A DNA stretch of 64,000 nt from Taxawa tesnikishii (nom. ined.). Its lineage: Eukaryota; Ascomycota; Dothideomycetes; Dothideales. Every line of letters begins with the position of its first letter. The first letter of the stretch is position 1. The stretch is from NCBI GenBank assembly GCA_030247885.1, contig JAPDRO010000017.1, positions 620,001-684,000 on the forward strand. Direction: 5' to 3'. Below are positions 31,849 to 60,803 of the stretch, in pieces. The position numbers and the translations under genes were made by a program. The notes beneath the pieces were generated by a model that saw only the letters and a program-made list of their open reading frames with translations, searched no databases and was not told the origin of the DNA.

Positions 31849-34321
31849 TCACCCTTTGCAACTCCGGATATAGTTCAACGCCGAACCATGCTTAAGCCAA
31901 GGGATTTGTCCAGCATGATAAGAATGGTTCAGTCGCGTCTCCCACACCTCTCCCGACTCCGGCTCGACCTTCATCGTCAGCTGCTCTTGCGGCGCAATAC
32001 TCTCGACTCCGACAATGCTGATGCGGTCTGTAGAATTGATCCTATCGTAAGCCTTCGGGTCCGCGAAGGTAAGCGGCAGCATACCCTGTTTCTTGAGATT
32101 CGTCTCGTGAATACGGGCGAACCCCTTTGCGATCACAGCAATGCCGCCGAGGAATCGAGGCTCCAGTGCTGCGTGCTCTCTGCTCGATCCCTCGCCGTAA
32201 TTGCTGTCACCGATGATGCACCATTTGATGCCCTGGTCTCGGTACATCTTAGCTACCGCAGGAACGGATTCTACAGAGTCATCGATGGTACTGATCGCAA
32301 GGCCACGCCCGTTGGATGGCAGGAATGCGTTCTCTGCTGCCGTGAGCATATTGTTGGAGATGTTCTCGAGATGGCCACGGTACTTGTACCAAGGTCCGGC
32401 AGGAGAGATGTGATCAGTCGTGCATTTTCCTTTGACCTTGATGAGAATCCTCATGTGATCTGCGTTCCCGGTTTGCCACGCCTCGAATGGCTTCAATAGC
32501 TGTAATCGATCTGATGATGGATCAACTATAACCTCCACCGAAGATGGATCCTCTGGCGGCGCTTGATACGTGTCTTTCCCGACAGCGAAAGCCTCTGGTA
32601 GTTCTTCGGCCGAAGGTGCATCGAATCGGAACGGCGTCCCGTTGCTAGAAGTCAGATAGTCTTTTTGAGGGTTGTAATCAAGCGAGCCGGCGTATGCGAA
32701 AGCCGTCACGAGCTCTGGTGACGTGACAAAGGAGTGCGTCCTAGCATTGCCGTCGTGACGACCGACGAAATTGCGGTTGTACGAAGACATGACCGAGTTT
32801 GGTTCGTTCTGTTCGGCGCGTCAGCAGGAGTCGATAGGGAGGATCACTCGTCTACCCACCTTCCCAACATCTGTCCTGTTCCACTGGCCTACACAGGGTC
32901 CACAAGAACTGCTGAGGACAACAGCGCCAGCAGCTTCAAGCTCTTGCAGGATACCGTCCTTCTCCACGGTGGCTCGAATCTTCTCACTGCCAGCAGTGAT
33001 GAACATTGGTGTTTTTGGCTTCATACCTGCATCAGCAGCCTGTCGCACCATTTTGGCGACTTTCTTCAGGTCCTGGTATGAGGAATTGGTACAGCTTCCC
33101 ACCATAGCATAAGAGAGCTGTTGAGGCCATGTACTGTTCTCCACATCAGTGGAGAATTGAGACAGAGGGTGCGACAGATCAGGTGTAAAGGGCCCGTTGA
33201 TGTGGGGTTCTAGGGTGCTGAGATCAATCTCGATAATCTCGTCGTAGAATGCTTCGCTGCCAGCGTCAGCGACCAAGAGTCCCGCGTGGTTGCGCGCAGC
33301 ATTTGCGATATAGTCTCTCCCGGTGGCGGTCAAGTAGCGCGTCATGGCAGGGGAAAAAGGGAATATACACGACGTCGAGCCAATCTCTGCGGACATGTTG
33401 CATACGGTCGCCATGGCGGTAGCTCCCAGAGTCTCCGTTCCCGGTCCAAAGAATTCAATAACCTTGCCCTTTCCTCCAGAGACGGTTAGAATTCCTGCAA
33501 GCTTCAGAATGATGTCTTTTGAGGACGCCCATGGCTGCAGCTGTCCTGTTAATCTGACACCACATATCTTCGGGCATTGGAGTTCCCACGGCATACCCGC
33601 CATGGCATCAACAGCGTCCGAGCCTCCAACGCCAATTCCCATCATGCCCATTCCACCCGCATTGGGCGTGTGAGAGTCAGTCCCAATGATTAAACCACCA
33701 GGGAATGCGTAGTTCTCGAATATGATCGTATGGATGATGCCGGATCCTGGCTTCCAGAACCCAATTTGGTATCGTTTGGATGCTGACGAAAGGAAATTGT
33801 AAACCTCTCGATACTGCTCCATTGCGTTCTCCAGATCGGCCAGATCACCTTTCTCCGCCACTATCAAGTGATCGCTGTGCACAGAGGTAGGCAGTGCGGT
33901 TTTTGTAGACCAGCACTGATGAACTGCAAGAGAGCCATGGTAGCGGTTGCATCATGACAGGCTGCCCGATCTGGGTTGAGTTTCAGAAATGACTTTCCAC
34001 GCTCCAAAGGTTGAACGTCCGGTTCGCAAAGGTGGCTATAGAGGATCTTCTCTGACAGAGCCAACGGTCTGTCGAGCCGTCGCCGAATGATACTCAGATT
34101 ATTGCTGAGCTTCGCGTATGGAAGACGAGCATGCTGCAGAGAAGTCAACGATGTTTCTGTACCCAATGTGGGCTCAAAGCACTCACACGCTCCAGATTGC
34201 TGATGGGTAAGGGTCTGCGATCCTCCGATATTGTGGCGAATCCCTGCGTCCTCCGCACACATTCTGCGGACGAGACGAGTTGGCGCTTGCTAACAAGCAG
34301 CCGACACGATGAAGCGCGCAT
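31849..34321 (-). CDS. Mitochondrial aconitase-family hydratase (aconitase paralogue)
   Basis: Full-length aconitase-family [4Fe-4S] hydro-lyase, about 789 residues. The first exon (34187-34321) encodes a typical mitochondrial presequence, [20 protein letters not shown], followed by [11 protein letters not shown]. Exons 32860-34133 and 31849-32808 follow; introns are 53 and 51 nt. Iron-sulfur cysteines are in [10 protein letters not shown] and [11 protein letters not shown]; active-site residues include [17 protein letters not shown] and [18 protein letters not shown]. One base appears missing in TTTTT 33900-33904 (plus strand), just before HSDHLI; with it the length is a multiple of three. 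The catalytic set is complete, so a hydratase/isomerase on a tricarboxylate is expected. Because it sits among an aldolase, a lactonase-like amidohydrolase and a carrier, it may act on a pathway acid rather than citrate; that is inference. It is divergent from the RraA-type gene. Confidence 0.9.
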
Positions 34322-34636
34322 TCTAGATATGGATGCGAGACCATTTCGAGAGACAAGACAAAGGAATGTATATCTTCAAAAGAGGCCGCCACGTCCGTCT
34401 CCACCGTAGCCGATCTAGATTCTCAGGAGCCTTCCGTTTGTGTTTGCAGACAAGATGCGAGGGGACGGGTTTGTCCGGCATGGATTCGTGTGGGGATCGG
34501 ATAGCCGAGTCGGATAACTCCAAACCCGTCCGATTGCGCCGAGGAACGCTCCGCTGTCATAGCATTGACACTTCCTTGGTTTCTCACTGCTGGATGAACA
34601 CTCAAAATACAAGAACCACTGTACAGTTGTTTGAAG
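34322..34636. promoter_or_regulatory. Bidirectional promoter between aconitase and RraA-type genes
   Basis: 315 bp between divergent starts. It contains two direct copies of TCGGATA, at 34497-34503 and 34510-34516, spaced 13 bp start to start, and a nearby inverted TCCGA (about 34,528). CGG triplets of this kind are typical half-sites of Zn2Cys6 regulators, and a gene for such a regulator lies in the cluster. Binding is inference. Confidence 0.4.
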
Positions 34637-35523
34637 ATGGCAGCCAAGTCAGTGTTCGACAACTTGACGCGTTTCACGTCTTGCGATGTGGGTGCAGCAG
34701 CGTTGTTCGACCGTTCGTGTCCCAAACAGTTTTCTGGTCGGAGAGGCGTGAGTCAAGCTCAAAGCGCCATATGGTGGCTATCCACTTGGACTGAGGATGT
34801 ACTCTTCTCAGCACCAGGCCGGCGAGAGGAGCATGTTTGGACCCGCTTAAACAATCCAAATGGCCCGTATGAACGACACCACGGCAGGCAAACCATCCAA
34901 ACATTTTGCAGATGGCGTCGAAAGAGACTGTGTCGTCATCATCTCCGAGCTAAAGGAATTCTATGTCGCTTGCTGGGGCAAATTAATGAGCACGCGAGCG
35001 CAATACCTCGGGGCTCAGGGTGTTGTCATTGACGGCAATTTCACTGACATCAACGAGCATAGCGCTCGATTTCCCGGTGACTGTCTTTGGATTCCCGACT
35101 CTGGTGATGCACGCTGACCGTATAGCGATTCGCGCGTGGTTCGTCTTCGCTTGGCTCCAACACCTTCACACGTGCTGCTGCGCTCAATGTTCCGGTGGAA
35201 ACCTCGTCGCGGTTGCAGTCAGAGCCTTTGACCATCCGGCAGGAGATCTGATTCTGGCTGATGCGGATGGTGTGGTTGTCCTTGCTCCAGAAAAGGCCGG
35301 GAGTTGTCTTGAGCTTCGTGAGGAACGTTTTGCGATAGACGAACAGACATTGGCTAGCCTCAAGGCTGGTGATCAGACCGGTCCAACTATAGCTCGGCTG
35401 CGTAAATGGAGCGGGACTGCTCCATTGATGGGAAATGCGCTGCGTTATGTGTATGCATATCTAACTTGTTGTGACCCTCTACGATTTGTTCTTCCAAGAA
35501 ACGCCAGATGTGTATGTGTGTAG
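34637..35523 (+). pseudogene. RraA-like / 4-carboxy-4-hydroxy-2-oxoadipate aldolase-type gene, apparently damaged
   Basis: Recognisable pieces of an RraA-fold class II aldolase (the HMG/CHA aldolase family, giving pyruvate plus an oxo-acid): SVFDNLTRFTSCDVG at 34,646, GGYPLGLRMYS and ERSMFGPA at 34,773-34,847, KPSKHFADGVERD, ACWGKLMSTRAQYLGAQGVV, IDGNFTDINEH, then RFARGSSSLGSNTFTRAAA, and GDLILADADGVVVLAPEK near the end. The order is correct but the pieces are in different frames. At least one change is probably a single base missing near 35,228, like the homopolymer errors elsewhere. There is also an in-frame TAA at 34848-34850, which a C-to-T change of CAA would explain, and the segments around 34,700-34,770 and 35,060-35,120 do not join cleanly with any intron I tried. 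It may be a pseudogene or a badly called functional gene. The coordinates are approximate. Confidence 0.6.
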
Positions 35524-35524
35524 A

Positions 35525-36568
35525 TCAGGAGAGGGGTTGCACATTTTGTGATAATGCAATCTCTTTCACGGAGCTTGATCTCACTTGCTCCGCCAGCAGT
35601 AGAAGCCGCTCGAAGGCAGTGAAGCTGATAGCTCCCGATACCTATTTTGAAATCGGATCAGCTCAGCTCAGCTCAAACAGGTCAATGAGCATGCTCTCAT
35701 ACCGTCAGCCTGATAAGTCGTGGTGTGGTGCCACGCCAAAGACCCTTGATCCCTTCCTCCCTTACAACATTTTGCAGACACAACAGAAGAGTACGATTCT
35801 CGGGACCACTTTGTAATGACTGAAGCCTTGTCTTGAGTGTATCAAATGGCATGGTACAATACACAGTGACGACACCGGCAAAACTCCCAGCAATCATGGT
35901 TTGGGCGTTCCGCCACTTCTGGCCCAGACGGCTGCGAATGGTATCGAGAAAAAGCTATAGCTGGTGAACCGAACCATCGAGTTCGAAGCTTGTTTCATGC
36001 TGACCGGAACCACTCCTCTGTAGATGCCTCTTGGTCCCTCGTTCTCCAGAAGCTTTCGTATGGCATCCACAGAGCCACGGAATTGCGGTCCTCCAGGTCG
36101 TCGGCGATCGTCGATAACCCTGGTCTTGATGGTTTCGCCCGGCGTCACGACGAGCACACTCTCCATAAGGCCGGCCACGAAGCCTGCCACTACGTTCGAT
36201 GCTGGTGTGATCTCCCCAGTCAGGGGTTCTTTCGAAGATTTCGCCTGACATTGTCAAAGGTAAAGAATCTGACGGCAGATTTGGAGGCATTGGAAGAACA
36301 GAAAACGCCTGCTCCTCCATAGAGAAGTCTCAATGATCCTTTCTGTCTAAGAGTCTCGAGCAATATCTTAGAAGGGGAAGATGCTTGTCCAGTCCGGCCC
36401 GGAAGCTGCTGACGGGTCTTGATGTATTCAGTTGGATACTTTCGAGATTAATGAACTTGGTTACACATGTCCGTGAGATACACATACGGTGATGAGTGAT
36501 TCCAGGGCGCCAGCTCCAGCGCCAGCAAACAGCGCGTCGACTCCGCGGGGCTGAGGTCGTGAAGTCAT
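35525..36568 (-). CDS. Mitochondrial carrier protein, tricarboxylate/citrate transporter type
   Basis: Member of the mitochondrial carrier family (three repeats of about 100 residues), about 311 residues, in the inner membrane. The signature of each repeat is visible: YPTEYIKTRQQ, TPGETIKTRVIDD and MPFDTLKTRLQ, followed by RLLYGGAGV, GIYRGVVPVSMKQASNSMVRF and GLWRGTTPRLIRL. The SMKQASNSMVRF segment and overall pattern are closest to the citrate carrier (Ctp1) branch. Exons are 36488-36568, 35703-36438 and 35525-35641; introns are 49 and 61 nt, the last containing a small gctca tandem. Two single-base frame changes (GGGG 36224-36227 and near 35,903-35,912) are needed; with one base added at each the length is a multiple of three. 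The location suggests it exchanges an acid made by the neighbouring enzymes with the matrix. Confidence 0.87.
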
Positions 36569-36857
36569 CGTTAGTTATTGGCCGCAGACAAATCATGTCC
36601 GCCGCAAAGACATTTATGTCAGCCTACTTGCCTAGACGGCTATCGAAGGCGTTGGCCAAGAAGAGGTTACATCCGGATCTTCGATATTGTACGAAGACGG
36701 ACTACTCCGCGAAGTTCGCGTGGAGCCAACTAGGGGATCGATCCGGTCTCGCTGCATGATCGACACTTAGACATCTTGGAAATCTCTTGTTTCGACTGTA
36801 TACACATTTACCCCAGTCAATGGATATCGTGTCGCCCGTCCAAATAATAAGTTGAGA
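36569..36857. promoter_or_regulatory. Bidirectional promoter between carrier and amidohydrolase genes
   Basis: 289 bp between divergent starts. It contains CCGGATC at 36673-36679, a motif also present in the promoter between the lactonase and MFS genes (42138-42144) and similar to TCGGATA in the aconitase promoter. A candidate site for the cluster's Zn2Cys6 regulator (inference). A short open frame at 36,597-36,761 has no recognised domain. Confidence 0.4.
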
Positions 36858-37894
36858 ATGTCCACAGCAACAGCGACCCCAACAAACGTTACGGCGGAAC
36901 TGTTTCCGCATGGAGGATGGGACACCCACCATCACATCTTTGAACGTAAAGCATTCCATCTTGTCGATACTGTGTACACTGGCTGAAAAGGTCATCATAT
37001 AGCACAAAGGTTCAGCTATGCTTCGCATCGGCACCTTACTCCTCCGACTGCATCTATCGAGCAATGCAACTCATTCAAAAAAGCCTTGGAATCACTCGCT
37101 CAGTACTGGTACACGGACTCTCCTACGGTCATGATTGCACATCGTTGCATACGTTTATCAAAGAGCTGGGAAATGGAAACACAAGGGGAGTGGCAGTGAT
37201 TAGCAAAAAACGACAGACAAGGAGATAGACGAGCTCCACCTGTCCGGAGTCCGCGGTATCCGCTTGGACTTGTACAGCGAGGGAGCCATGCAAGACCTCG
37301 ACAAACAGAAGGAAATGCTCCGGTATTATGCACATCGCATCGAGAAGCGAGGATGGAGTATGGCATTCCTGCAAATGTCTCCGGACAACTGGGAACCACT
37401 GTCCGAGGTGGTAGCAACACTTCCAGTACCGGTGGTCACGGATCACTTCGCCCTCATGAAAGGGAGCAGTATGCTGCCTAAAGGTGTTGCCGTTCTCGAA
37501 CAGCCCGGATTGCAAGCTATCGCAGACATGATGAAAGCGGGGAACTTCTGGGTCAAATTGAGCGCTCCATATCGGTGCTCGGAACAGGCACCGCATTACG
37601 GGGACATGGAAGAGCTAGTCAGGTTTCTAGTGAAGACGAATCCACGGAGAGTACTCTGGGGTAGCGACTGGTACTCGGTTTCTCGATTGATACATGAATA
37701 TCCAGACCGGCTAATAATGCTGCAGGCCTCATACTCCTCGAATGAAAATCAGAACGCCGGAGGACGCGTTGAAGGAGACACCGTTCCTCCAAGTAGATGA
37801 TTTGGCCTGGCTCAAGAGTCTGCGGAACTGGCTGTCGGATGAGGAATGGCACTTGTTGATGGTAGTTAACCCAGAGACCCTGTATGGATGGTAG
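36858..37894 (+). CDS. Amidohydrolase related to 2-pyrone-4,6-dicarboxylate lactonase
   Basis: TIM-barrel amidohydrolase of the COG3618/amidohydrolase-2 group, about 308 residues, the family that contains LigI, which opens 2-pyrone-4,6-dicarboxylate. The N-terminal metal-type motif is GGWDTHHHIFEP (HxH), followed by RFSYASHRHLTPP; later blocks are GVRGIRLDLYSEG, VPVVTDHFALMKG (His and Asp), FWVKLSAPYRCSE and PRRVLWGSDWPHTPRMK (catalytic Asp). Exons are 36858-36945, 37003-37670 and 37726-37894; introns 57 and 55 nt. One base is missing in each of two six-A runs, 37077-37082 and 37205-37210; with both the length is a multiple of three. No targeting signal. The family also hydrolyses sugar lactones and other lactones, so the substrate is only suggested by context. 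Confidence 0.88.
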
Positions 37895-38097
37895 AGTAAT
37901 ACATGAGAGATCCTGTCAAACTCACGTGACCATGTGTTTGATACCCCGCACTTTCGCTGATTTCCGTGATCTGAGCGATTTGCGTTCCGTTCCGTCTTCC
38001 TCGTTCGCACAAAGCTGGAGCCGTCCGCACTTTTCACTCCTGCTAGACGCGCATCCATTATTGTCTGCAACAAGGAGTGGCGCGTGGGGTTGTCTTG

Positions 38098-40621
38098 ATG
38101 GACAACGATGTCAGTGTTTCGCCGGCTCCACAGCCTTCAAGCCGTAAGAAGGTGCGGCTAGCGTGTGAGCGATGTCGTGATCGTCGCATCAAGGTTGGTT
38201 TCCCTACAATTTCGGCTATACAGCTTCACGTCTGACAGAAACCAAGTGTGATGGTCAAGTACCGGCATGTGGCAATTGCGCCAAAGCTCGAGCCGATTGC
38301 ATTGACGTTGACGCGCGCTCGGCTGCTGGTCGCGTGTCTAGAGCGTATGGTTTCGAGCCCTTGGTCGTTCATGCTTTGGCTGACACAGGCAAGCTCTCAA
38401 GTCAATGCTGTTGCGCGCATCCAATGGCTAGAAGATCTGATCAAGTCCCGCCTGCCAGACGTTGATCTTGCATGCGGCCCTTCGGTATCTCTCCCCGGCC
38501 CAGTTAGTGGCAGTGCGAAGGGTGATCCTTCACACGCCGCATCCGAAGATGGCCGCAGCAACAAGCGTCAACGAGGACCCGATCAAGAGCACGATCTGGA
38601 TGCGACGGCTGCGATGAGGGCTCGCTTCATGGCCATGCAACTCGGTCTCTTTTCTCTGAACGGGAATGCATCTCGATTACACTATGTCGGCTCCTCCTCC
38701 GGATCTTTCTTTGCTTCTATGCTGCAGGCTAATCATGCTGCTGGAGACGAGTCACATCATGACGAAGCACAAGGGCTTGAGCCTGATAGTACTGCTCTCA
38801 ACAATCTGGACGGTGATTGTCCTGGAAGCTGCAGTCATGCGCTTACGCCTGATCTGGCAGCAGTCTTTGCATCGCTCCGAACGGTAAGTCTCGAAAAGAC
38901 TCAGGAAGCTCTCGCGCTGCAAGTTTGACGCTCAGCTTTCGAGAAGCACCTCGTCCTGTAACATTGCTCATATCTGGTGCAGAATCTGCCGCCCGAGAAG
39001 GAGTGTCAAGCGCTCATCACAGACTTTTTCTCCCACTGGCATCCTGATTATCCCATCCTGCACAGGCCAAGCTTCAACACGCTTGTGGAATCTCTTCATC
39101 AGTGCACCGGCCCTCCAGCTGAAAACTTCGATCACAACGGATGGCCTTCCGATCTAGCGGGCTTTCGGTACAACGGAGAAGTCTTCACAGACAACGGCAG
39201 AGAACGTATTCTAGTGTCAGTTCATGCCGCTGCCACTCAACTCCTACTCGTATTGAGCATCTCAGCGCATCTACGTGTCCGGAAGCGTCGGTATCAACAC
39301 GATCCCACAAGGTTCTATGGGGCAGCCATGGCACTATCACGGAATGCGGTTGCAGAGGCGTCGCTCGCGTCAATACAGATACTGCTGCTACTCGTTCTCT
39401 ACAGCTTCCACAGCTCTGATGGCGGGAACACTTGGATCATGCTCCACATGGCTATGAGCTATGCCATTGACCTCGGTCTGCATCGAGATATGCCTGCGAC
39501 AACGAGTTTCCCTGAGATTGCTGTGCAGATGAGGCGAAGGGTGTTCTTCTGCACTTACTCCTTGGAGAGGTTAGTTTTACAACCACCGCATGAATACGAG
39601 ATCATGGGTACAGACTTACCGACGGATTAGATGGGTGAGCACCGTGCAGGGACGCCCGCTTGGCTTTGAAGATCACACGCTCGACCTGACCCTTCCCAAG
39701 GTTGCGGCAATCATTCCGACAGATGACTTGGCTCTGAGAGATCAAGTATATATCCCATATTCAATCATCAGATTCCAATGGTCGAACATTCTCTCTCAAA
39801 TCAAACGTTATCTTTACCGCTTCCCCGATCCTGCCGCACCACCTCCTAATGACCAGGATGTCCAGGCCTTGCAACAAGAACTCAGAGTGCGGTTGGAGAA
39901 CTGGCTCGCAGAAGGCGTCAACATCGTCAAGGCTGTTCCTCAACCGGAAAGGGTCCGTCTCAACACAAAACTGGAGATGGATTATCATGCAGCTATGTGC
40001 TTGCTGTATCAACCTTCACAGGTGTGCAGGCGACCGACGAACGAAGCATTGCAGCAATGTCTCAACAGCGCTGTTAAACGCCTTCGTCTGTACGGATTGT
40101 TGTATGAGCAGAACCATCTTTACATGAGCTGGCCTACAGCTCATGGTGTCTTCCTGACCGGTGCCACCGTGCTGTACTGCATATGGTCCTCACTGGAGTT
40201 ACGCGCTTCAGCTTCTCTCTCCAGCCTTGCCAAGGACTTCCGGTTGTGTTCCAGCTTATTGGCAATGTGTGGTGAATGGTGGCCACTCATCCGGCAAGGG
40301 AGGAACAGCTTCGATCGCTTGGCAGATCTGACCCTCAGGGTGACAGCTGAAAATCCCAACATAGCGTCGGATGCACCCGCTCGATCGATGGAGCCATTCC
40401 CAGGTGCAACACAGCCACAAATGGACGCTGTGAACGGATTTGGCACGACAATCGAGAGCTTGTTGCAATCTTTCTTGCAATACGAACTGCAGTTTCCGGA
40501 AATCGTGGACTCTCTCAACTCCGCTGACTGGCTACAAGAAGATGTGGATTCGATGTCAAGTGGAATCATACTCGATAATCAATTCGCAGCCAACCCTAGC
40601 GATCTGTGCGGTTTCGAATGA
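38098..40621 (+). CDS. Zn2Cys6 transcription factor with fungal-specific regulatory domain
   Basis: Fungal binuclear-cluster regulator, about 753 residues, probably the local regulator of the surrounding genes. The six-cysteine cluster is ACERCRDRRIK joined by splicing to CDGQVPACGNCAKARADC, giving exact C-X2-C-X6-C-X6-C-X2-C-X6-C spacing. A dimerisation helix follows (VARIQWLEDLIKSRLP), and the fungal-specific (PF04082-type) middle region starts at LITDFFSHWHPDYPILHRPSF and contains ISIQILLLLVLYSF-like and LGLHRDMP elements. Exons are 38098-38193, 38247-38344, 38394-38883, 38983-39569 and 39631-40621, total 2,262 nt, a multiple of three without any correction. The first two introns appear to use AAG acceptors a few bases beyond a nearer CAG (see findings). 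Confidence 0.93.
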
Positions 40622-40720
40622 CCAACCATTCAACTCTAATGATGGAGCACTCCGTGGCTGCTGCGATTCTTCTGCCTTCCCCGATGTTACACGATGATGT
40701 GACAGCCCCTCAACTTCGGC

Positions 40721-42040
40721 TCATGGCGATGTTGATGTCACTAACGTGCCAAACGCCCCTCGACCTACAATCCAAAGCTCGTGATGTCCAAGCGCCAAGG
40801 AAACGGCCAGGTTCTCGCCGCCACCGACTCGAATCGTACCCAGAGTCAAGCCGGTTTCTGGACTGATGACATCGACACCGCCACCGGCACCGCAGAAAAT
40901 CCACCCCTCACGGCTGACGCGGATACCATCGTAGAAATATGAGATGGGGTTGTTGAGAAGACGCTTGTTCGTAAGGATAGGGAGCTGCTTGCCGAAAGCG
41001 GAAGTAGCGAAATCATAAGCCCACAGCTCGCGCGCACCAAATGGGTTCTTTGCCGACGGACGGAATTCAGAGACTCCTGTGTCTGGCAAATAGATCGTTC
41101 GACCGGAGGGATCGACAGCGACACCGTTTGCATTGCCGGTCGTCGTCTGTACAAGTTTTGGTTGCATGGTCGAGCCGTTGACGAAATAGGTTGAAGGGTT
41201 CGTCTGACGTGCGTAAGGGATAATACCCCGGCCCTGGATAACCGTCAACGAGCTGCCGAGGAACTAAATTGAAGGGGTTCCAAGACTTACCCAACCTGCT
41301 TTACTATCGGTGAGGTAAAAGTTACCACTCGGATCGACGTCCAAATCGTTGAAACCTGCAAAAGGTTGCTCATAGTAGTTGTTGAGAAGGGTCGTTCGCT
41401 CCCAGGTTTTCGGATCGATTCTCGCTAGATAGCCCGTCTCATCGGGACCGCCGTCAGTCACAACGTATAAAGCGTCCTGGTATGCAACACAGCCGTGTAC
41501 ATTGACGGTTGGAGGATCGGTGGTGATATTGTGAAGTGTGTTAGAGGTCGTATTGAGTAGGTATTGCCAGGTATGTACGCCCTCATTACCTCCAGGTGGT
41601 CCCCATTCCACGAAGAAGAGGTCTCTAGTACCCGGAAGGACACAAGGCGCTTCATGAGATTGGAAAGCTAGTGTCTGAACATGTTCGACCTTTGCGTTTG
41701 GACCAATGAGATTAAAGAACTCCTCATCGTAAGCAACAAAATCGGTGGAGTTCAGTTGCTGGTTCCTACGTCCTTGTCAGACATTCGTCTTGTGCTATTC
41801 ATCAGTAGGATCGCCCTACGCTGCAATCAAGGATGGACTCGCAGCCTGAGCGTCTGACGGCTCATCGAAGACAGAGCGATTGAAAGCACCGGAAAGGACG
41901 GCGAACGATGGCACATCGTACGACAACCAAGCCCATGATCCAATACTCTCATTGAACCTAGTTGGCAAGGATTTCAGAATCTGTGATTCTGCAGCAACGG
42001 AAAAGGATAGGACCAATGCAATAATCGAAAGTCTATCCAT
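40721..42040 (-). CDS. Secreted SMP-30/gluconolactonase-like beta-propeller protein
   Basis: Member of the SMP-30/gluconolaconase/LRE-like family, about 402 residues, with signal peptide MDRLSIIALVLSFSVAAES, so probably secreted. Propeller and metal-type motifs visible: EWGPPGG, NVHGCVAYQDALYVVTDGG, GFNDLDVDPSGNFYLTDS (Asn/Asp), GNANGVAVDPSGRTIYLPDTG and DGIRVSREGWIFCGAGGGV (Asp). Such enzymes open sugar or aromatic lactones with a divalent cation. Exons are 41820-42040, 41291-41765 and 40721-41233; introns 54 and 57 nt; total 1,209 nt, a multiple of three, with no frame error. It converges on the regulator gene with 99 bp between stops. If it takes part in the neighbouring pathway it would act outside the cell, before uptake by the divergent transporter; that is inference. 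Confidence 0.88.
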
Positions 42041-42691
42041 GATGGGATAGAACGGAAAGCAGGGCGGGCTTAGCGGGGGTGTGACGGTAATGGTGCTCCA
42101 TGTTTGCCGGGATCCTCATGATACTTATATCCATATACCGGATCATTCCAGATATGTTGTGGCGAGGGCAGCACTTCATGGGACAATCAATCGATCCCTC
42201 AGCGGACTGAATGCAGTGTTGCTGTTGCCCCGTACCACAGTCAAAGAGGGGAAGGAGGCAGCCTGGCGGTCTGTATCAATGCTTTCTGTATGCCCAGCTC
42301 GTAGTGTTATGTCCGTGCCTGCGCCTGTTGGGCATAACCAATCACGGTAATCATTAGCCACTTCATGCCTGGTCAACCACCTTCTCTGCTGACTCGTGTC
42401 CACGGAGTAGTCCATAGGCTTGAGCTAGAGATGCCGCTCCAGTCTGGGGTTGCGGGGATTTCGCGGAGAGATCGTGGGGTATATCAAGCGTTGCAAAGGC
42501 CGGAGCCATCCATCCTCTCTGGATCAGTCCGCCCCCTCACATCACGCATCAGTAGCGCTCCTCGGCACAAATGCGTACCTATATGCTGGAGACCGCGGCA
42601 AATTATATATACGTCCAGTTCGATGCGTTGTTCCTTGACTAGCAATCATCCGTGCCCTCTCTGTACCCTATTGCTCTTTCTTTTGGTAAAC
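42041..42691. promoter_or_regulatory. Bidirectional promoter between lactonase and MFS genes
   Basis: 651 bp between divergent starts. CCGGATC occurs at 42138-42144, matching the site in the carrier/amidohydrolase promoter. A TATATATA-like patch lies near 42,603-42,610, about 85 bp before the MFS start, a plausible core promoter. No repeat found. Confidence 0.4.
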
Positions 42692-44322
42692 ATGGCGACA
42701 GTATCGAAGGATATGTCTGTGGAACACCACGAGCTGGTCGACAACAAGTTCAACCTGCATTCAACTGATGACGAGCCAGTGTTCGATGAAGAGTTGTTTC
42801 GTCGGAGGGAGAGGAGCTTGGTGAGGAAACTGGATTTGACTCTCACTCCGATGATCTGGATTCTCTATGTCTTCAACTACCTTGACCGCAACAACATTGC
42901 GTGAGTGCCATAGAACGAGATATACATATATTACGAACACATAACTGACAGCTGACAGCTCAGCAAAGCTCGGCACATTTGAAAAGGATCTGGGACTCAA
43001 AGGCACCCAATTCAATACAGCTGTATCAATTCTAAATGTTGGGTAAGAATACTCGTACCTTCGTCAACAGACTTTCCCTGACCCTTGCTCAGATACATGA
43101 TCATGCAATTGCCTAGCAATATGCTCTTGACACGAGTTCGGCCCTCCCTGTACATCCCCTTCTGGGTATGCATCTGGTCTATCATCTCCGCCACCACAGC
43201 CGCTGGTCACAGCTACACACATCTTATTGTCATTCGATTCTTCCTCGGAATTGCAGAAGCCCCGTTCTTTCCCGGTGCCTTCTACCTTCTCTCATGCTGG
43301 TACACGCGCAAAGAGCTGGGCCTACGGACGGCGATTATGTACTCAGGTCTTGTCCTTGCGACGGCGTTCTCCGGTCTCATCGCTGCCGGTGTGTTCTCCG
43401 GACTCGATGGCGCTATGGGACTGACAGCGTGGCGGTGGTTGTTCATCATCGAGGGTGCTGCAAGCTTCTTGTTTGGGCTTCTTGCAACACAAATACTCCC
43501 AGACTTCCCAGACTCCAAGAGTGGAAGTACGAAGTGGCTCTTGACTGAAGAGGAACGGGCAGTCGCAATGGAGCGCATGAGGCGCGATCGCGTCTCGGCT
43601 CCGGAAGGGAACCGGTCCGTTTGGTATGGCTTAAAGCTGGCCGTCGTGGATTACCGTACCTGGATATTCGTAAGTTCCTGCGAAAACTCAGTTGTTGCTG
43701 AAGAATACACCTAACGTTATGCCAGGTTTTGATGCTCCTCGCCAACCATACCGCATATGGGTTCAACTCCTTTTATCCTTCTATCGTCAAAGGACTCCAT
43801 TTGGGATCGACTACAGTTACTCTGGTTCTCACAGCACCGCCATACCTTCTAGCGACCATCGTCTCCTTCTGTTTTGCCTACTCCAGCGACCGCTTTGGAG
43901 AGCGAGGTTACCACATCTCCATTCCAATGAGCGTAGCAGCAGTGGGCTTCATCATCTCCGCTGCGACTTTGAACGTCCACGTCCGCTACGCTGCTTCCTT
44001 CCTGTTCATCTGTGGCTGCTTTTCATCAAACGCGATGATATGGAGCTGGGCAGCATCAACGCTCAGTCAGACGCCGGAGAAGAAAGCGGCCGCTACTGCA
44101 CTGATCAACCTGCTGGCGCAGCTGGGCAATATCTGGAGTCCGTACTTTTTCCGTCCGCAAGACGCCACTCGCTACCTTTTGGCAATCTTGTTGATGATGG
44201 CGTTTACGCTTCTGGGTGTCGCGACTTGCGTCGCCATGAAATGGTCATTGCGCAGAGCGAACAAGCGGATATTGGAAGAGCATGAGGGCCTCGAGAGAAA
44301 GCCTACACTGCACACGTTGTAG
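42692..44322 (+). CDS. MFS transporter, anion:cation symporter (ACS) family
   Basis: Plasma-membrane major facilitator of the ACS branch (Dal5/Tna1-like), about 488 residues with 12 predicted helices; members take up organic anions such as allantoate, nicotinate or tartrate. After a cytosolic N terminus comes LTPMIWILYVFNYLDRNNIA (helix 1, with the family YLDR motif); then YMIMQLPSNMLLTRVRPSLY, RFFLGIAEAPFFPGAFYLLS and WYTRKELGLRTAIMYSG. The second half has AYGFNSFYPSIVKGL and the charged loop YSSDRFGERGYH. Exons are 42692-42900, 42959-43042, 43093-43669 and 43726-44322; introns 58, 50 and 56 nt, all with clear ends; total 1,467 nt, a multiple of three. It probably imports the substrate of the adjacent enzymes (inference). 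Confidence 0.93.
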
Positions 44323-45731
44323 ATTTGGCAGAAGGACAATCAAAAGATGGTGGCGATCAAGGCCAGTAACGGCGTTTCCGCTTATGACATGTGTGGAAGA
44401 TCTATCATGCTATTTAGTTGCCCAATCGCACTGATGTCTATACACTTGATTCGCCCCTCTAAACCCTAAGGGTCTTGACACCTGACCAATGCAGTCAGTA
44501 CTACTATAACAAGGTAGCCAGTGTCCTATTCCGTTGCTATTCACCACCGTAGAGGCTCCGAAATCTGTCTCTTCCTCATGTAGGATAGCGTCTAATGGAT
44601 GGGAACTGCTTGCACGTGGACGATGGCCATTTGCGTGCGAGTGTACGCCTTTTCATAGGAGTGTCGAGCTTGTTCGATTGCTTGTTGGGACCTTTGAATG
44701 TTTGTCTATCGATCTCAGCCGAACTGGGCGCGCCGATGTGGATTAGGGACATAGCTAGCCATAGAAGGTTTACGTATAGTTCCTATTATTACCGACGCGA
44801 TAAAACGTAAGGTTATAGACTTAAAGGTAAATACGTTATAATACCTCATAGAAGTCTTAAAAGCCTTTTATAGTAAGTTATCGTAACGTATTAACTAAAA
44901 TTTACCCTATGAATTAGTTATCTTATTATTAGCTATTATATTTAGAGTTTACTAAGTTATTTGCATTATTTATCTTCTTATTAACTATTATATTTAAAAT
45001 ATTTAAAGTCTATTAAATTATTTATGTTATATATACTATTATTAACTTATTTATATTAGAGTTTATAAAGTTGCTTTTAATATTTATTACTTCTTTATAT
45101 ATATACTTTCTATTTATAATAAGCCTTATATTAATTTATAATATAGATAGTATTATAAATATTATTATAACTAGATTTAGTAAGTTAGTACAATAAATAA
45201 TAGACTTTTTTTACCTCTTATTAAGAGAATACCGATCGAAGATATAAAGATAAAGATAAAGCGGAGTAAGGAGTAGCTGTTGGCAATTTCGCGAAATAGT
45301 CCTTAGCGGCCGAGCCGACCGACCGAGCGTCCGAGTTCGGTACCTCCAGGAAAGTGCCGAGTTGTGGTAGCGCCAAGGTCGGCCAGGACCGAGAGCGCCG
45401 GGGATCAGATAGCCTCGGAAGTTCGGCGCTCTCGGTCCTGAGCCACCTTCAGGGCTTCCCCTTAGCGTCGTCCCTCGATGATCTGTCCTTGGGCAACTGC
45501 TAGAGACCATACCGGATGAGACTTCGGACGCACAACCACCGCGTGTGGGTCGTAGTGTGGACAGATGCGGAGTCGGAAATGTTGCGATTGAGGGACGGTG
45601 AAGTGTAAAGTAGATAAGACGACAGACACGCCAATCAGCTGGGTGACTTAGTATCCTCGAGCTTTGTTCTGTCGCCTCTCCCCGCACGCAAAGTATAAAG
45701 CGCCTCGCAAAAACGCTCGACGCAGTCAAAG
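44323..45731. other. Intergenic region with a RIP-mutated A+T-rich block and a hairpin
   Basis: 1.41 kb. The part 44,770-45,240 is strongly A+T-rich with many TA steps and few CA/TG steps, the RIP footprint; the original element is not recognisable. The rest is of normal composition and contains the long hairpin at 45384-45440 and the promoter of the downstream hydrolase. Confidence 0.6.
45384..45440. repeat. Perfect 17-bp inverted repeat (hairpin)
   Basis: CAGGACCGAGAGCGCCG at 45384-45400 is followed 23 bp later by its exact complement at 45424-45440. The stem is G+C-rich and would form a stable cruciform or RNA hairpin. It lies about 290 bp before the hydrolase start and 150 bp after the RIP block. 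It could be a regulatory palindrome or the end of an otherwise unseen element; neither can be told apart here. Confidence 0.85.
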
Positions 45732-47575
45732 ATGCCACCACCTGTCCAAATCGCTTTCAAGCGTGTCACGGAACCCAAGGTCGGCGAGAATGGGTATTTG
45801 GGCTTCACTCCAGGCAGAACCGAAGTCCACAAAGCAGGCAGTAGACCCGGAAACGCAAAGCCCTTGAGCTCCGACATCCTGGTCCAGCATGATGTGGAGA
45901 TCATTGTTCGTGACGGCGCTCGCCTTTACGTCGACATCTACCGCCCTGCAGACTCGGACGAGAAGGTTCCGGCAGTTCTGAGTTGGTCATTCTATGGCAA
46001 GAAGTACAGCGCTCTCGACATGCTGCCCATCTGTGTCTGGAAGTGCTGTGTTACCGACGAACATCTCAGCGGACTAGAGAAGTTTGAGGGACTCGACCCT
46101 GAGCACTGGTGTCCTCGCGGCTACGCAATCGTCAGTGTCGATTCTCGCGGCGCCGGAAACAGCGATGGTCAGATTGCCGTCATGGGCACACAGGATGCCG
46201 AGGATGGATATGACGTTGTTGAGGCAATTGCCAAAATGGACTGGTAAGCGCACTTTCCTATTCGGGATTGATGTTCATTAGGGTAACTAATACTAATACT
46301 GCTCAGGTGCAACGGAAACGTCGGCATGGCCGGAAACTCTGCCCTGGCCATCTCACAGTGGAATATTGCCGCCCAACAGCCGCCATCACTCAAGGCGATC
46401 GCACCTTGGGAAGGCATGAGCGACATCTACCGCGAACAATTCTGCAGGGGTGGGTGGTTTTCCATGAGCAATTTCGACCTCATTGCCAAGGCCATCGTCC
46501 GCGGTCAGCCCAACGCTGGCCTGGAAGATCTGGACGAGATGTATCGACGCAAACCTGTTGCCAGTGCTTTCTGGGAAGATAAAAGGATCGACATGAAGAA
46601 GATCAAGTGTCCGGCCTACATCAGAGGTTCCGAAGTCAGTGCTCTCCACACCATGGGTTCCATCAGAGGCTGGATGGAAATTCCTCACGACCAGAAATGG
46701 ATTCACTGGGGTAGCACTCAGGAATGGTATGAGCTTTACGGCCAACCCGAGTCGAACCACGAGTTGCAGAAGTACTTTGATCGTTTCTTGAAGGGGAAGG
46801 AGAACGACTGGGAATCCACTCCCAAGCTCAACTGGTCTCTGCTTCAATTCGGAGACCGCCCTGCCATTGAGAACGTCATGATTAAGGACTTCCCTGTCCC
46901 CAACACGGATTACAAGGAGTTCTACCTTGGGCAAGACAAGAAGCTGGTCGATCAACCGCTTTCGTCCCTCCAAAAATCACGTACAACTCCGAAGAACATT
47001 TGAGCTTTGCAGAATTCACAAGAACCTTCGACAAGCCGACAAGCTTACTTGGTCTGCCCAAGGCAATCCTCTATGTATCCTGCGCCGACACCTCCCGCGA
47101 CGACTTCACCGTTTTCGTCATCCTTCGCAAGCTCGACAAGGACGGCAAAACACTCTACCACTTGAACTTCCCCATCGAGGCCACCCCTGTCAAGTCGATC
47201 GACGAGATCCCGGAGAAGGAACGAGCATCCTTGAACCTATTCTCAGGCGCCACGGGAATCCTCCGTGCTTCTTGTCGCGAAATCGACGAGAGCAAGAGCA
47301 TCCACTCTCAGTTCCCCTTCCACCCTCACAAGCGACAGCAGAAGTTGAGCCCGGGTGAAATCGTCAAGCTCGAGATTGGTATCTGGGCCATGGGTGTGCA
47401 CTACGATGCCGGCGAGAGCGTTTCCGTCAGGGTTGGTGGTCAATACCCCAGTATTGCTGAATTCACGAGTTTCTCGGGGCCAAGACCTGAGCATGAATTG
47501 AACAGAGGGGAACACATTATTTATTCTGGTCCTGACCACCCAAGTAGGATTATTTTGCCTTTCGTTGATGTTTAG
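45732..47575 (+). CDS. CocE/NonD-type alpha/beta hydrolase (X-Pro dipeptidyl-peptidase S15-like)
   Basis: About 593 residues. N-terminal catalytic domain with DVEIIVRDGARLYVDIYRP, SWSFYGKKY, YAIVSVDSRGAGNSDG and the nucleophile motif GNVGMAGNSALAISQW (Ser); then IAPWEGMSDIYREQF. The C-terminal jelly-roll-like domain (LPKAILYVSCADTSRDDF, PGEIVKLEIGIWAMGVHYDAGES) is as in CocE/PepX. These enzymes cleave esters or amides; the fungal group has no agreed substrate. Exons are 45732-46243 and 46307-47575; the 63-nt intron joins KMDW to CNGNVG. One base appears to be missing near 46,966-46,975 (adjacent C and A runs), after which PKITYNSEEHLSFAEF reads through; with it the length is a multiple of three. 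Confidence 0.88.
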
Positions 47576-47793: not shown

Positions 47794-50310
47794 CTAAGTG
47801 TCTCCAAAGCCTGTACCGTTTGCCCAATCCATACCTTCCAAGCTCCCGACAGCACTACCCGAGTCCATCCAATTCCAAAGTTCTTCGAGATTGTAGCCTT
47901 CGAATGGCATTGTGCTCAGATCTGAGCCATCGTTCATACTGCCCGTTGCAGCGGTGTGACTTGCATTGTGGAGCAAGATATTGGAGATTTGCATGGTAGA
48001 GAGCTCTCTGCCCATGACGTTTGACGCTGGCGATGAGTTTGATGCACTAGAGAGACCGGCTTGTCGGCTCTGTCCACTGCTGCTAGACGTGTAGTGGTTG
48101 TTAGGTGAGGGTTGAGAGGCATTGTTGCTGTTGTTGACAGCATGGCCGTTCATGTTTGTCGTATTGCTGGAGCTGCTGAAGACGTTGTTCGGCAGGTTGG
48201 TAGGTGGCAATTGCAAAGCTCTGTTGCTTTGTGCCAATTTCGATCGGGAGATGCATTCGACGACCCTTCCGCAGATGATCGTTGCACCTGGGAGCAACTT
48301 AGTCAGTAAGGAATCGAGAAAACCGAGGAGTCCAGTGACGTACCGTCTGAGAATTGCTCATCCATCCCAGTTTTACGAAATTGGCCTGATGTCCACTCAG
48401 CCACTGCTTTGAGTAGCTGCATCACGAACAGTCAGCATTCGGAAGGTGGCAAGCAAACATCCGAAGACAGTCTCACCTCCAAATCGGAAAGCTGCATTCT
48501 CCCTCCAGGATTCTTCACAATGTATGTGGCCAGCACCACACACGCCAGTAATGCAGGTCCACCACTCAGAAGGCGTGAATCCAGTTTCCTTTCCATCAGC
48601 TCGATTGTGATCTTGGCGACAGCTCTTGCACTGCTGACACAAATGGCTTCGCCGCCCCTAAGTCTGTACCTGCCGTCATTATCAGGTATCAGCTTGTCAA
48701 TCTCCCGCTGCAAGGCTGTTGTTGGCTGGATCAATGCAGCTCGATGGACTGCAATGATGGATTGATGGTATTGGAAAGATAAGAAGGCAGCAAGATGGAT
48801 TTGATCGTCTCCACAAAGTAGGTCATTCCCTGGTCGGAGTTCGGCTGGCACCAGCGAAGGCCAAAGCAAGAGCTTTTTGTCCAATCTGGCAGAGTCCAGA
48901 AGAATTTCTCTCGCTGTTCTTTCGCCTGGTTGATGGCCATATAAATGTGTCGAAATGTCGTTCTGGACCTCTGCGAGAGCCATGTTCCATTGTAGGAAAT
49001 CGTGACCTGGCGCACGCTGATCGGCTGCCATCATTTGATCGGTATTGACTACGCTGATTGCGGACGGTCTCCCACATTCAAGCTGTCCCATCTTTTCCAG
49101 ACAACAACAAACGGCCCAGATACGAGCATGAAACAGTTGCTCATCCCGTCGCTGGATGCCGTGTTGATCTGAAGGCCTAACTACAGAATGTCGATGAAGT
49201 CCCATGGAATGTGCTATCCTGACAGCAGTACCGGTAGCTCCCCAGCCTAGACCATCTTTGTTCCTTGAAAACTATCGTCAGCTATCCGATCGTGGAAAGC
49301 GCGTCGGATTCATTGCATGATTACCTTCCTCTGTAGCATACAGCGAGCAATAACAGACATTGTACTGTCGTCAAGTATGGGAAATTGATAGAATAGCCAG
49401 CCAGTGCCGCGCCTACCTTGAGGTATTTCGTCCCAACCTCTGAAGGAGCGTCATTCAACTCATCAGCCCCTAGACTCATCAACAGATATGCCATTGCTAG
49501 AAGTGGAACTTGGGTATATGTTAAGGACTTGAGATCTGGCAGGGCAGCGATCCGATGGACGATGGCTTTTGTGTCGTCGATGTCTGTAATGGGGTAAAAG
49601 ACGTGTATGCGAGTAAAGTATGCATCGAGGTAAGCCCGTCTTGTATCGTACTCTGGAAATGGTATGAGCTCTAATGATAGAGGTAACTCCATCTCCTCAG
49701 CGTGCTGCATGCCATGCCGAAACAGAGTCGAGACTGGTTCGACACCGTACGATTGGAGGTATATATCAAGAGACTTTGTCAGACACTGTGCGCTACTTGC
49801 GCCCAGCATCTTGAATCGATTATTGACAAAATCAAGATTGAAGGACATGTCGTGTGGTTGTTGTACAGGCGAGACATCGTTTGCTTCCGGGATTGCTGGA
49901 GTACCCAGGTTGCCATTGACGGAAGGCGTGTGGTTGTTTTGTGGTTGCGGAGATGGCTGCCGGGGTTGGTTTCCGGGCTGTGTCATGGCCGGAGGAAGCT
50001 CACGATTAATGCTCCTCTCCCGCTCTAAAGATGGAGCTATCCGAGGAGGATTCTGCAGTAGATGACCAGGCGGCGCAGGCGCATTCTGAGTCGGATTGCC
50101 TGGAATGTCCACCCACTCCCTCACGACCGGAATTTCTGGCCGTTTTGGGTCGCTTGTAAAGCATTCTGCGTTCCTGCTACAACAATTCGTGCATTTTGGG
50201 TAGTTTGCGTCGCATTTGACCTTCCGCCGCCGGCACTCATTGCATGCCGTCGTGAGGCGTGTCTTCTTCGCTGGAGGCGGACTCATGGTAGTAGTCGAGG
50301 TGGAAATCAA
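47794..50310 (-). CDS. Zn2Cys6 transcription factor
   Basis: Second binuclear-cluster regulator, about 779 residues. The cluster is ACNECRRRKVKCDANYPKCTNCCSRNAEC, near the N terminus (C-X2-C-X6-C-X5-C-X2-C-X6-C); a Pro/Gln/Asn-rich linker follows, then the fungal-specific domain (YFTRIHVFYPITDID, LLAMAYLLMSLG, VRIAHSMGLHRH). The C-terminal tail is Ser/Asn-rich and ends in acidic-aromatic activator-like sequence (EGYNLEELWNWMDSG). Exons are 49325-50310, 48477-49263, 48344-48416 and 47794-48287; introns 61, 60 and 56 nt; total 2,340 nt, a multiple of three with no correction. A second ATG at 50286 (MSPPPAKK) could be the real start. It converges on the CocE-type hydrolase gene and may regulate it; inference from position only. 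Confidence 0.92.
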
Positions 50311-51226: not shown

Positions 51227-52569
51227 TCAAGCTCTAGCTGCTGTCTGCTTGTATGCTTTCGCTTCAGCTTCCCGACTCCTCTCCACCCAATCCAGCGCAC
51301 CCGAGTAATTGCAGTTGTACTCCAAAAACTCCTGCGGATTTAGCTTGACGGTTTTGTTGTCCTCGGAAGCTGCTGGCTTTGCTTGCAGCCTGCTGTACGC
51401 TTGGATCAACGATGCTCGATCATATCGTGCACTGAAGACGGCGTGCAGCCGCTGCCGGACATCGTCGCTGGAGGCTTCTCGGCCCATGTCGGATAGATAT
51501 GCCTGTAACGCTTCTGCGTCTTCGATACTCTGACTCGCGCCTTGGCCTTGGGTTGGGAGCATGGCGTGAGCGGCATCTCCGATCAAAATGGTGCGTCCCT
51601 TAGTCCAGGTTGTAAGAGAATCAATGTCTCTTAGTTGCCAAAGGGCGACATCGGGAGCATGAGACATGATCTCCCGCACCCAAGAGGGAAAAGCCTTGAA
51701 GGCGTCGAGTACTTCTTCAAGGGGGCAGAGTTGTTCCACGAAGTGCCTTCGTTGTTCGGATTTGGGTCGGGGACAAGGCAGACAAGACCGAACATCTCTC
51801 CGCCTCTCCCGGGACCCATGATGACACGCTTGTCGTGGCCAACAATCATCGTTGTGGCTGATCGCTTGAGGTCGAAGATGTCTTCCGAAACATCCAGCTT
51901 TGGTAGTTTGGCGGTTTCGACGAGAATGCGGTAGGCAGATAGACCGGTAGGTATGGCTTTAGATCCTTCACTCTCTGTGCTCTTGATGACCTCGTCTCTG
52001 ATGACGCTACGAATACCGTCTGCTCCAACGACGACGTCTCCCCGGATGGAGGCCTCAACACCGAGGTAAACCACTCCAGATTCGCAGTCGCAGCCAGTGA
52101 CTCCTGAAGAAGTCCGGATGACAGCCGGCGAACCAGGCATGCTTTCCGAAGTCGCGGCTTGACGAAGAGCATCGTGTAGATCTTGACGATGGTATAGCAT
52201 TCGATCGGCTCCGAACTGTGCCGAATTGAGTTTCATCTCGACTTGCAGCTTTCCATCAACATTGAGAAGACGGAAGGCTTCGTCGACCATTGGCTTCTTT
52301 GCCTCGAGAAAGGGTGCCATGTTCCAGCCATCAACAATTTTTGAAGCGTTGGGTTGGAGAGATATCAAGGCTCCGACCTCTTTGTTCATACTCGACTTTT
52401 CGAGCACGAGGATGCTGCGGTCATCTTGGCGGAGGGCAATCGCCTGTTCGAGTTGTAAGTCAAACTGTGATTGTCCTGGGAAATCGAATCTTCATACAGT
52501 AGCAAGTCCAGCAATTCCAGCTCCAACGATGACCACATCCCAGTGTTCTACTTCTGACCTGATCGCCAT
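51227..52569 (-). CDS. FAD-dependent monooxygenase, salicylate-hydroxylase-like
   Basis: Class A flavoprotein hydroxylase, about 429 residues. The N-terminal Rossmann motif VVIVGAGIAGLAT binds FAD; the DG motif is VVVGADGIRSVIRDE and the GD motif is TILIGDAAHAMLPTQGQGASQ. Length and motifs fit the salicylate 1-monooxygenase/3-hydroxybenzoate 6-hydroxylase group, which hydroxylates aromatic acids with NAD(P)H, but such enzymes are also used in secondary metabolism. Exons are 52498-52569 and 51227-52443; the 54-nt intron falls right after the FAD motif (AGLAT|AIALRQDD). One base seems to be missing near 51,738-51,745, after which VEQLCPLEEVLDAF reads through; with it the length is a multiple of three. 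Confidence 0.88.
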
Positions 52570-60439: not shown

Positions 60440-60803
60440 ATTATTAGTAATATAAACTATAGGGAAGCGAGATAGGTAGGGAAGCGAGATACTAAAACTC
60501 GTCTTCTTAACTTCTAAACCTACTACTACTAATAATAAGTACTTTTATACTAGATAAGTAAGTTTATATTAAAGCTAATATTTAAAAGTATATTTTTACT
60601 TATAAAAATAAAGATTATAAATTAGTTTAAGACGTTACTTACGTATTTAATATTCCTCTTACTACTATATATTATCGTATAACTAAATAACCTTTACGCG
60701 CTATAGCGTATAAATCGGATTAAATCCTTTTAAATATAAAAGAAAAGACGTTAATTAAATAAATTATACGTCTTATATATACTAGCTTTTTACTTTACTT
60801 ATA

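Follow-up and report, generated by a model that had tools for sequence, protein, structure and literature searches.

In a window of 64,000 nucleotides from the fungus Taxawa tesnikishii (G000:C9:620001-684000, from a 29.4 Mb assembly of 34 contigs), we read a group of seven neighbouring genes as a catabolic cluster whose substrate would be a citrate-like acid in lactone form and which is decaying in this strain, and give this reading a probability of about 0.45, a little short of even. As contig C9 measures 721,834 nt, the cluster stands some 58 to 70 kb from a contig end. It comprises, in order, an aconitase paralogue (- strand), an RraA-type aldolase gene (+), a mitochondrial carrier (-), an amidohydrolase (+), a Zn2Cys6 regulator (+), an SMP-30 lactonase (-) and an MFS transporter (+), with Pfam matches to Aconitase, Aconitase_C, RraA-like, Mito_carr, Amidohydro_2, Fungal_trans and MFS_1, as well as SGL. 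Three pairs are divergent (aconitase/RraA, carrier/amidohydrolase and lactonase/MFS). Seven loci of these families, the three divergent pairs and a central Zn2Cys6 regulator had been listed in a first-pass annotation, and all were recovered with Pfam support, the regulator by its Fungal_trans match and by a Zn2Cys6 cluster visible by eye in the spliced reading. Not all seven can be taken as working genes: RraA is a pseudogene, and the aconitase, carrier and amidohydrolase genes carry frame breaks.

In the route that we propose, the MFS protein would bring in the acid, free or as its lactone. Lactone rings would be opened by the amidohydrolase and by the SMP-30-type lactonase, which is probably secreted, and the carrier would pass a tricarboxylate to the mitochondrion. 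Next, the citrate-like acid would be dehydrated, hydrated or isomerised by the aconitase paralogue, in the manner of aconitase with citrate, and the resulting 4-hydroxy-2-oxo acid would be cleaved by the RraA-type class II aldolase to pyruvate and another oxoacid. The Zn2Cys6 protein would turn on the whole set. We infer each reaction, compartment, substrate class and mode of regulation in this scheme. One candidate substrate would be 4-oxalomesaconate/4-carboxy-4-hydroxy-2-oxoadipate (CHA); because the latter compound differs from citrate by one additional keto carbon, it could reasonably, in chemical terms, undergo a step of the aconitase type. This candidate may be favoured by LigI, the nearest solved structure to the amidohydrolase, and by the PrpF proteins of this genome, which lie nearest to the 4-oxalomesaconate tautomerase model (below its cut-off). 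The other would be a citrate analogue, for example hydroxycitrate lactone, with a decarboxylating dehydrogenase acting between aconitase and aldolase to lead to pyruvate and glyoxylate. Hydroxycitrate would be an equally reasonable target for an aconitase-type step, and this candidate may be favoured by Iso_dh genes found next to RraA elsewhere in this genome and in a bacterial locus, both described below.

A first body of evidence for the grouping comes from the rest of the genome, which contains at least four RraA genes and at least two PrpF genes (both counts being lower bounds) and about twelve genes of the Amidohydro_2 family. At C29:627-640k a regulator, a carrier, an aconitase, a sugar MFS, an amidohydrolase and a PrpF gene lie together, and C33:53-73k holds an amidohydrolase, a regulator, Ldh_2, a class II aldolase, RraA, a decayed amidohydrolase, a DAK gene and an MFS gene. 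Iso_dh, RraA, a regulator and an SSADH-like aldehyde dehydrogenase (ALDH) gene occupy C29:744-749k (within L029, C29:741001-750000), and C12:1288-1293k has a homogentisate-dioxygenase-family gene, RraA, PrpF and a weak FAD-type redox match. Because RraA and PrpF genes are so few in 29 Mb, genes of these types are unlikely to have met by chance, on our own estimate; and since these families come together again at other sites, the grouping, judged from sequence, is more than chance. The catabolic grouping proposed in the first-pass annotation is thereby borne out, with amidohydrolase, aconitase, RraA, carrier and PrpF (the last outside the window) co-occurring elsewhere. As separate observations, the decayed second amidohydrolase of C33 (AH1; about 7.1-7.9 kb of L016) has several frame breaks and a stop and, by eye, has lost a metal-binding Asp, and the dioxygenase-family gene beside RraA and PrpF (L030, C12:1286001-1294000) may be a ring-cleavage link to the same chemistry.

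A second body of evidence comes from bacteria. An alignment of the fungal amidohydrolases was not conserved enough to serve as a query, and a scan of the collection with the amidohydrolase piece of the window gave 49 pattern-matching stretches, none of which was confirmed; the bacterial set was obtained with the C29 amidohydrolase piece and consists of the best 80 of 373 confirmed loci, each 3.3 to 12.4 kb long, so that neighbour counts made by tblastn are lower bounds. SMP-30 was found in 10 of the 80 loci, the aconitase family in 8, RraA in 7, TctC in 28, 2-hydroxyacid dehydrogenase in 13 and class II aldolase in 6. SMP-30 and aconitase stand together beside the amidohydrolase in six loci (L070, L093, L105, L109, L124 and L143), four of which also have RraA (L093, L105, L109 and L143), while L070 and L124 are without it within the stretch examined. 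L093 was read gene by gene, and single genes were read in the other five and in L114. L093 encodes DctP and DctM (TRAP), SMP-30, Amidohydro_2, GntR, an 863-aa aconitase, an AbrB-type membrane protein, RraA and a class II aldolase, and its aconitase is of the AcnA type, over the model cut-off. Besides the operon aconitase, each of the six genomes has a frame of 472-518 aa, the size of LeuC, and a further long aconitase frame, which is weak in G002 and strong in the other five. Furthermore, L070 has Iso_dh beside lactonase, amidohydrolase and aconitase, and L092 and L114 combine the amidohydrolase with SMP-30, RraA and 2-hydroxyacid dehydrogenase. Apart from these, the betaproteobacterial loci L099 and L123 contain amidohydrolases, TctC proteins and aconitase-family genes, L099 having two aconitase-family large subunits (one LeuC-type by NCBIfam) and one small subunit.

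Operons of the L093 type are like the window cluster in having the same four enzyme families together with a transporter and a regulator, and differ in their aconitase branch, their TRAP transporter and the tetronate genes attached to them. Because the L093 aconitase is AcnA-type and the window piece scores best in NCBIfam as mitochondrial aconitase, the aconitase role seems to have been filled from two branches, a fungal mitochondrial-type and a bacterial AcnA-type. More tentatively, and with the odds as we see them against it, these clusters may represent an undescribed route in which the citrate-like acid released by lactonases goes to an aconitase paralogue dedicated to it and on to RraA, a route assembled separately in fungi and bacteria and being lost here. 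Among the matches listed from the open-licence literature, we found no description of the gene set or of the bacterial TRAP/SMP-30/aconitase operons.

Several observations weigh against the reading as a cluster for a citrate-like lactone. PrpF was found by tblastn in none of the 80 bacterial loci (0/80), and 54 of the 80 are without SMP-30, RraA, aconitase, class II aldolase, PrpF and 2-hydroxyacid dehydrogenase alike. Among the relatives of the window amidohydrolase, those with the highest scores (L144, L095, L081 and others) lack adjoining SMP-30, RraA or aconitase genes, and L092, which ranks 11th by score and has the highest identity (41%) of the 14 listed, has SMP-30 and RraA and no aconitase. 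The six lactonase-aconitase loci are alike, so they stand for few independent events, and two enzymes scoring over their cut-offs, a 3-oxo-tetronate kinase in L070 and a 3-oxo-tetronate-4-phosphate decarboxylase in L093, point to sugar acids. In the fungal genome, the search gave no aconitase match on C33 and no amidohydrolase match on C12, and no Zn2Cys6 site with a single spacing was present in all three divergent promoters of the cluster (chance expectation 0.26); inverted repeats numbered two in the aconitase/RraA intergenic stretch and none in the other two.

The decay of the cluster is clearest in its RraA gene. The window copy has an in-frame TAA near 34848 and two frame breaks that no intron explains, one near 35063 and the other somewhere between 35215 and 35240, both outside single-base runs, and its active-site motif reads DGNFTD, against DGRFRD, DGRFRD and DGRLRD in the three other copies of the genome. 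Stop, breaks and motif loss appear in all three pairwise comparisons, with the C12, C29 and C33 copies, which themselves align without a frame break. In a Pseudomonas aldolase Arg-123 is important, the R123K change lowering kcat 181-fold (PMC5065237), and on our own reading this residue is the arginine of the DGRFRD-type motif. By its sequence the window RraA is a dead gene that has lost the conserved active-site arginine, and the cluster has no functional CHA aldolase of the RraA fold.

The other breaks are one in the aconitase (near 33905, within a short A run), two in the carrier (near 36231 and 35941) and two in the amidohydrolase (near 37085 and 37204, both in A runs). All were located with a purpose-written aligner permitting introns and frame breaks, and rates were taken over summed aligned residues or matched spans. 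In the four broken genes 8 break events fall within 4.2 kb, whereas the controls have 1 in 14.3 kb (p 5e-5), the one in the core aconitase on C11. Break-free among the controls were CPS, ALDH, the homogentisate dioxygenase family gene, both PrpF genes (aligned parts), the three RraA genes, the C33 MFS (compared with its own model) and, over the spans that matched, the aconitase-family frames on C16, C7 and C23; AH1 of C33 (decayed) and 19 other carriers (too divergent) stand outside all counts. With the C29 aconitase (2 breaks) and the C29 amidohydrolase (1, weak) added, the controls have 4 events in 17.1 kb (p 6e-4). When RraA is left out, the aconitase, carrier and amidohydrolase (5 events) give p 0.002, which becomes p 0.011 once the two C29 genes count as controls. 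The regulator, lactonase and MFS genes of the same stretch have ordinary introns and no frame breaks, part of the C-terminal half of the regulator having been aligned without one. The claim of decay rests mainly on RraA; the aconitase, carrier and amidohydrolase genes are probably, not surely, broken.

A different route had been drawn in the first-pass annotation, on the model of the lower part of the bacterial protocatechuate/gallate 4,5-cleavage pathway, whose members are LigI, LigU/GalD, LigJ/GalB and LigK/GalC. Taken strictly, the amidohydrolase would open 2-pyrone-4,6-dicarboxylate, PrpF (C29/C12) and aconitase would convert 4-oxalomesaconate to CHA, and RraA (C12/C29/C33) would yield pyruvate and oxaloacetate, which we consider unlikely. 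LigI is indeed the best solved-structure relative of the window amidohydrolase (E 1.3e-9), and the metal ligands are present (DTHHHIFE in the first exon, by eye, and the equivalents of H180 and D248). In a pairwise alignment of low identity, however, only four of six LigI positions compared are kept (R124, H180, R217 and D248, the roles of all six being those we take them to have), and R130 and Y156, which belong to the substrate residues of a 2-pyrone-4,6-dicarboxylate lactonase, are lost. The sole NCBIfam match, to 4-sulfomuconolactone hydrolase, reaches 66 of 500 bits on a 198-aa piece, far below the cut-off; no curated cut-off is reached. PrpF (PF04303), as a tautomerase or isomerase for the route, has no match in the window and two genes elsewhere in the genome search. 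Both are nearest to the 4-oxalomesaconate tautomerase model of NCBIfam and below its cut-off, the C12 protein with 304 of 440 bits (next model 249 bits) and a C-terminal piece of the C29 protein with 140 vs 91 bits. This speaks for the strict route, as do the matches of the C29 and C33 RraA proteins to the ligK model (below cut-off) and the dioxygenase-family gene adjoining RraA and PrpF at C12; against it, PrpF is closer among solved structures to 3-methylitaconate and 2-methylaconitate isomerases than to the 4-oxalomesaconate isomerase LigU, and was found in none of the 80 bacterial loci. To our knowledge, none of the known bacterial hydratases of the 4-oxalomesaconate step is an aconitase, which also counts against it.

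Because the window RraA is a pseudogene, the route as drawn cannot run from the window cluster alone. What survives of the 4,5-cleavage logic is the catabolic grouping, with a lactone-opening amidohydrolase near LigI, an RraA-fold aldolase and, in the sister clusters, a PrpF-type isomerase near the tautomerase. Unlike the bacterial pathway, the window has an aconitase paralogue in place of LigJ/GalB, an added SMP-30 lactonase and mitochondrial carrier, a dead aldolase and an amidohydrolase without two LigI residues, and the one LigB-family match of the genome (LigB being the extradiol family searched) is on another contig, C5. For filamentous fungi, PMC10512348 states that gallate-breakdown genes had gone unreported and that older work has aconitate and 4-oxalomesaconate as intermediates; it cites an old A. 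flavus report of 4-oxalomesaconate and pyruvate on gallate, which favours the strict route. According to PMC12388069, Aspergillus instead uses gallate through PhyA and a DUF3500 protein, which disfavours it; DUF3500 matches occur in one place of the present genome, on C6. Among the matches listed in the open-licence literature, nothing on fungi and oxalomesaconate was fitting apart from PMC10512348, and none joined LigU, PrpF and oxalomesaconate.

Breakdown of a sugar lactone or sugar acid (a lactone of the ascorbate or aldonate type, for instance), in which the aconitase would have a side role, appears less likely still. An SMP-30 lactonase and an amidohydrolase are paired in the described bacterial ascorbate route, and the tetronate enzymes of L070 and L093 agree with such a substrate, as do the Ldh_2, class II aldolase and DAK genes at C33, although DAK and aldolase may form a separate unit there. 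The window MFS also points this way, its best NCBIfam match being the D-galactonate transporter subfamily 2A0114 (below cut-off); it shares 188 of 453 aligned residues with the MFS of the C33 cluster, and transporters of its kind go by the name ACS. This explanation does not account for the mitochondrial carrier and for an aconitase that gives E 2.6e-134 with pig aconitase and keeps 12 of 12 tested active-site positions in the aligned part, by what we take to be the list of active-site and Fe-S positions. The C-terminal motifs of this aconitase are likewise retained by eye, and its nearest relatives in the genome are on C29 and C11, in a comparison that left aside the aconitases of C16 and C7. 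Among the matches listed, the open-licence literature offered nothing fitting on hydroxycitrate, on LigI, or on ascorbate with an amidohydrolase and a gluconolactonase.

It is improbable that the cluster works and that every frame break is an assembly error. The core mitochondrial aconitase on C11 (L031), a gene presumably needed, shows a single frame break, within a C run, that is probably an assembly error, and because of this similar break part of the breaks in the window may be assembly error too. The breaks of the aconitase, carrier and amidohydrolase all sit where one base is repeated 4 to 6 times, and with the C29 controls their excess is only at the p 0.011 given above. Assembly error does not, however, account for the stop codon of RraA, its breaks outside runs and its lost arginine, nor for the overall excess of events next to three unbroken genes of the same stretch. 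That unrelated genes became neighbours by accident is very improbable: four broken genes of seven and the lack of a common regulatory site would fit, but the recurrence at C29, C33 and C12 and in bacterial operons would not.

The proposed roles also invite comparison with the itaconate clusters known from Ustilago maydis and Aspergillus terreus, where mitochondrial tricarboxylate transport and aconitate chemistry likewise stand beside an MFS transporter; Adi1 is a PrpF-family isomerase, and PrpF is present in the sister cluster on C29. No aconitate decarboxylase was recognised among the window genes, no search having been aimed at one, and the lactonases and aldolase of the window, unlike the itaconate clusters, point to breakdown and not to synthesis. 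Fungal secreted lactonohydrolases belong to the SMP-30 family, and the window lactonase resembles them in family and in an N-terminal hydrophobic stretch that looks by eye like a signal peptide, and differs from them in being clustered with an aconitase and an amidohydrolase. If the reading as a cluster for a citrate-like lactone is true, some fungal aconitase paralogues, usually taken as spare enzymes of the tricarboxylic acid (TCA) cycle, would be catabolic hydratases for non-TCA acids, and a concrete set of partners could be named for the RraA-fold proteins of organisms that lack RNase E. Intact genes for finding the substrate would be offered by the sister clusters on C29, C33 and C12 and by the bacterial operons, rather than by the decayed cluster of the window.

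Table 1. Genes of the cluster, in window coordinates.
Feature	Position	Strand	Basis and remarks
Aconitase paralogue, mitochondrial type	31849..34290	-	Pfam Aconitase and Aconitase_C; intron 32809-32859; N-terminal start uncertain
RraA/HMG-CHA aldolase family pseudogene	34637..35406	+	Pfam RraA-like; alignment with other genome copies; start codon placed by eye
Mitochondrial carrier family protein, putative tricarboxylate type (as proposed in the first-pass annotation)	35602..36523 (aligned extent)	-	Mito_carr; spliced alignment with genome carriers
Amidohydrolase, Amidohydro_2, nearest LigI / 4-sulfomuconolactone hydrolase	36858..37894	+	Pfam, structure and NCBIfam matches; intron 37671-37725
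Zn2Cys6 regulator, intact, 752 aa, with introns	38098..40621	+	Fungal_trans; full spliced reading
SMP-30/gluconolactonase-like lactonase, intact, 402 aa	40721..42040	-	PF08450, 46.1 bits vs cut-off 26.3; introns of 54 and 57 nt
MFS transporter, intact, 488 aa	42692..44322	+	MFS_1; spliced reading without break

The best references for the carrier were other carriers of the same genome with unnamed substrate, 32% (69/218) and 35% (83/238) identical. In settling the gene models, two further apparent breaks in the amidohydrolase vanished once its last intron was placed as in Table 1, a 27-nt intron in the lactonase was dropped for the 57-nt intron in the same frame, and the first two introns of one MFS alignment proved to be artefacts upstream of the start. 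Directly to the right of the cluster, at 45699-47572, lies a hydrolase of the Peptidase_S15 / X-Pro dipeptidyl-peptidase type. A transposon at 60786-62525 encodes, in one open frame of 580 aa, DDE_1 and Tc5-type DNA-binding domains, and low-GC blocks at 53-56, 60-61 and 62-64 kb of the window are consistent with a decaying flank. Finally, a FAD_binding_3 match at 51230-51958, near a second regulator (Fungal_trans, 48435-49271), may mark an aromatic hydroxylase unit.

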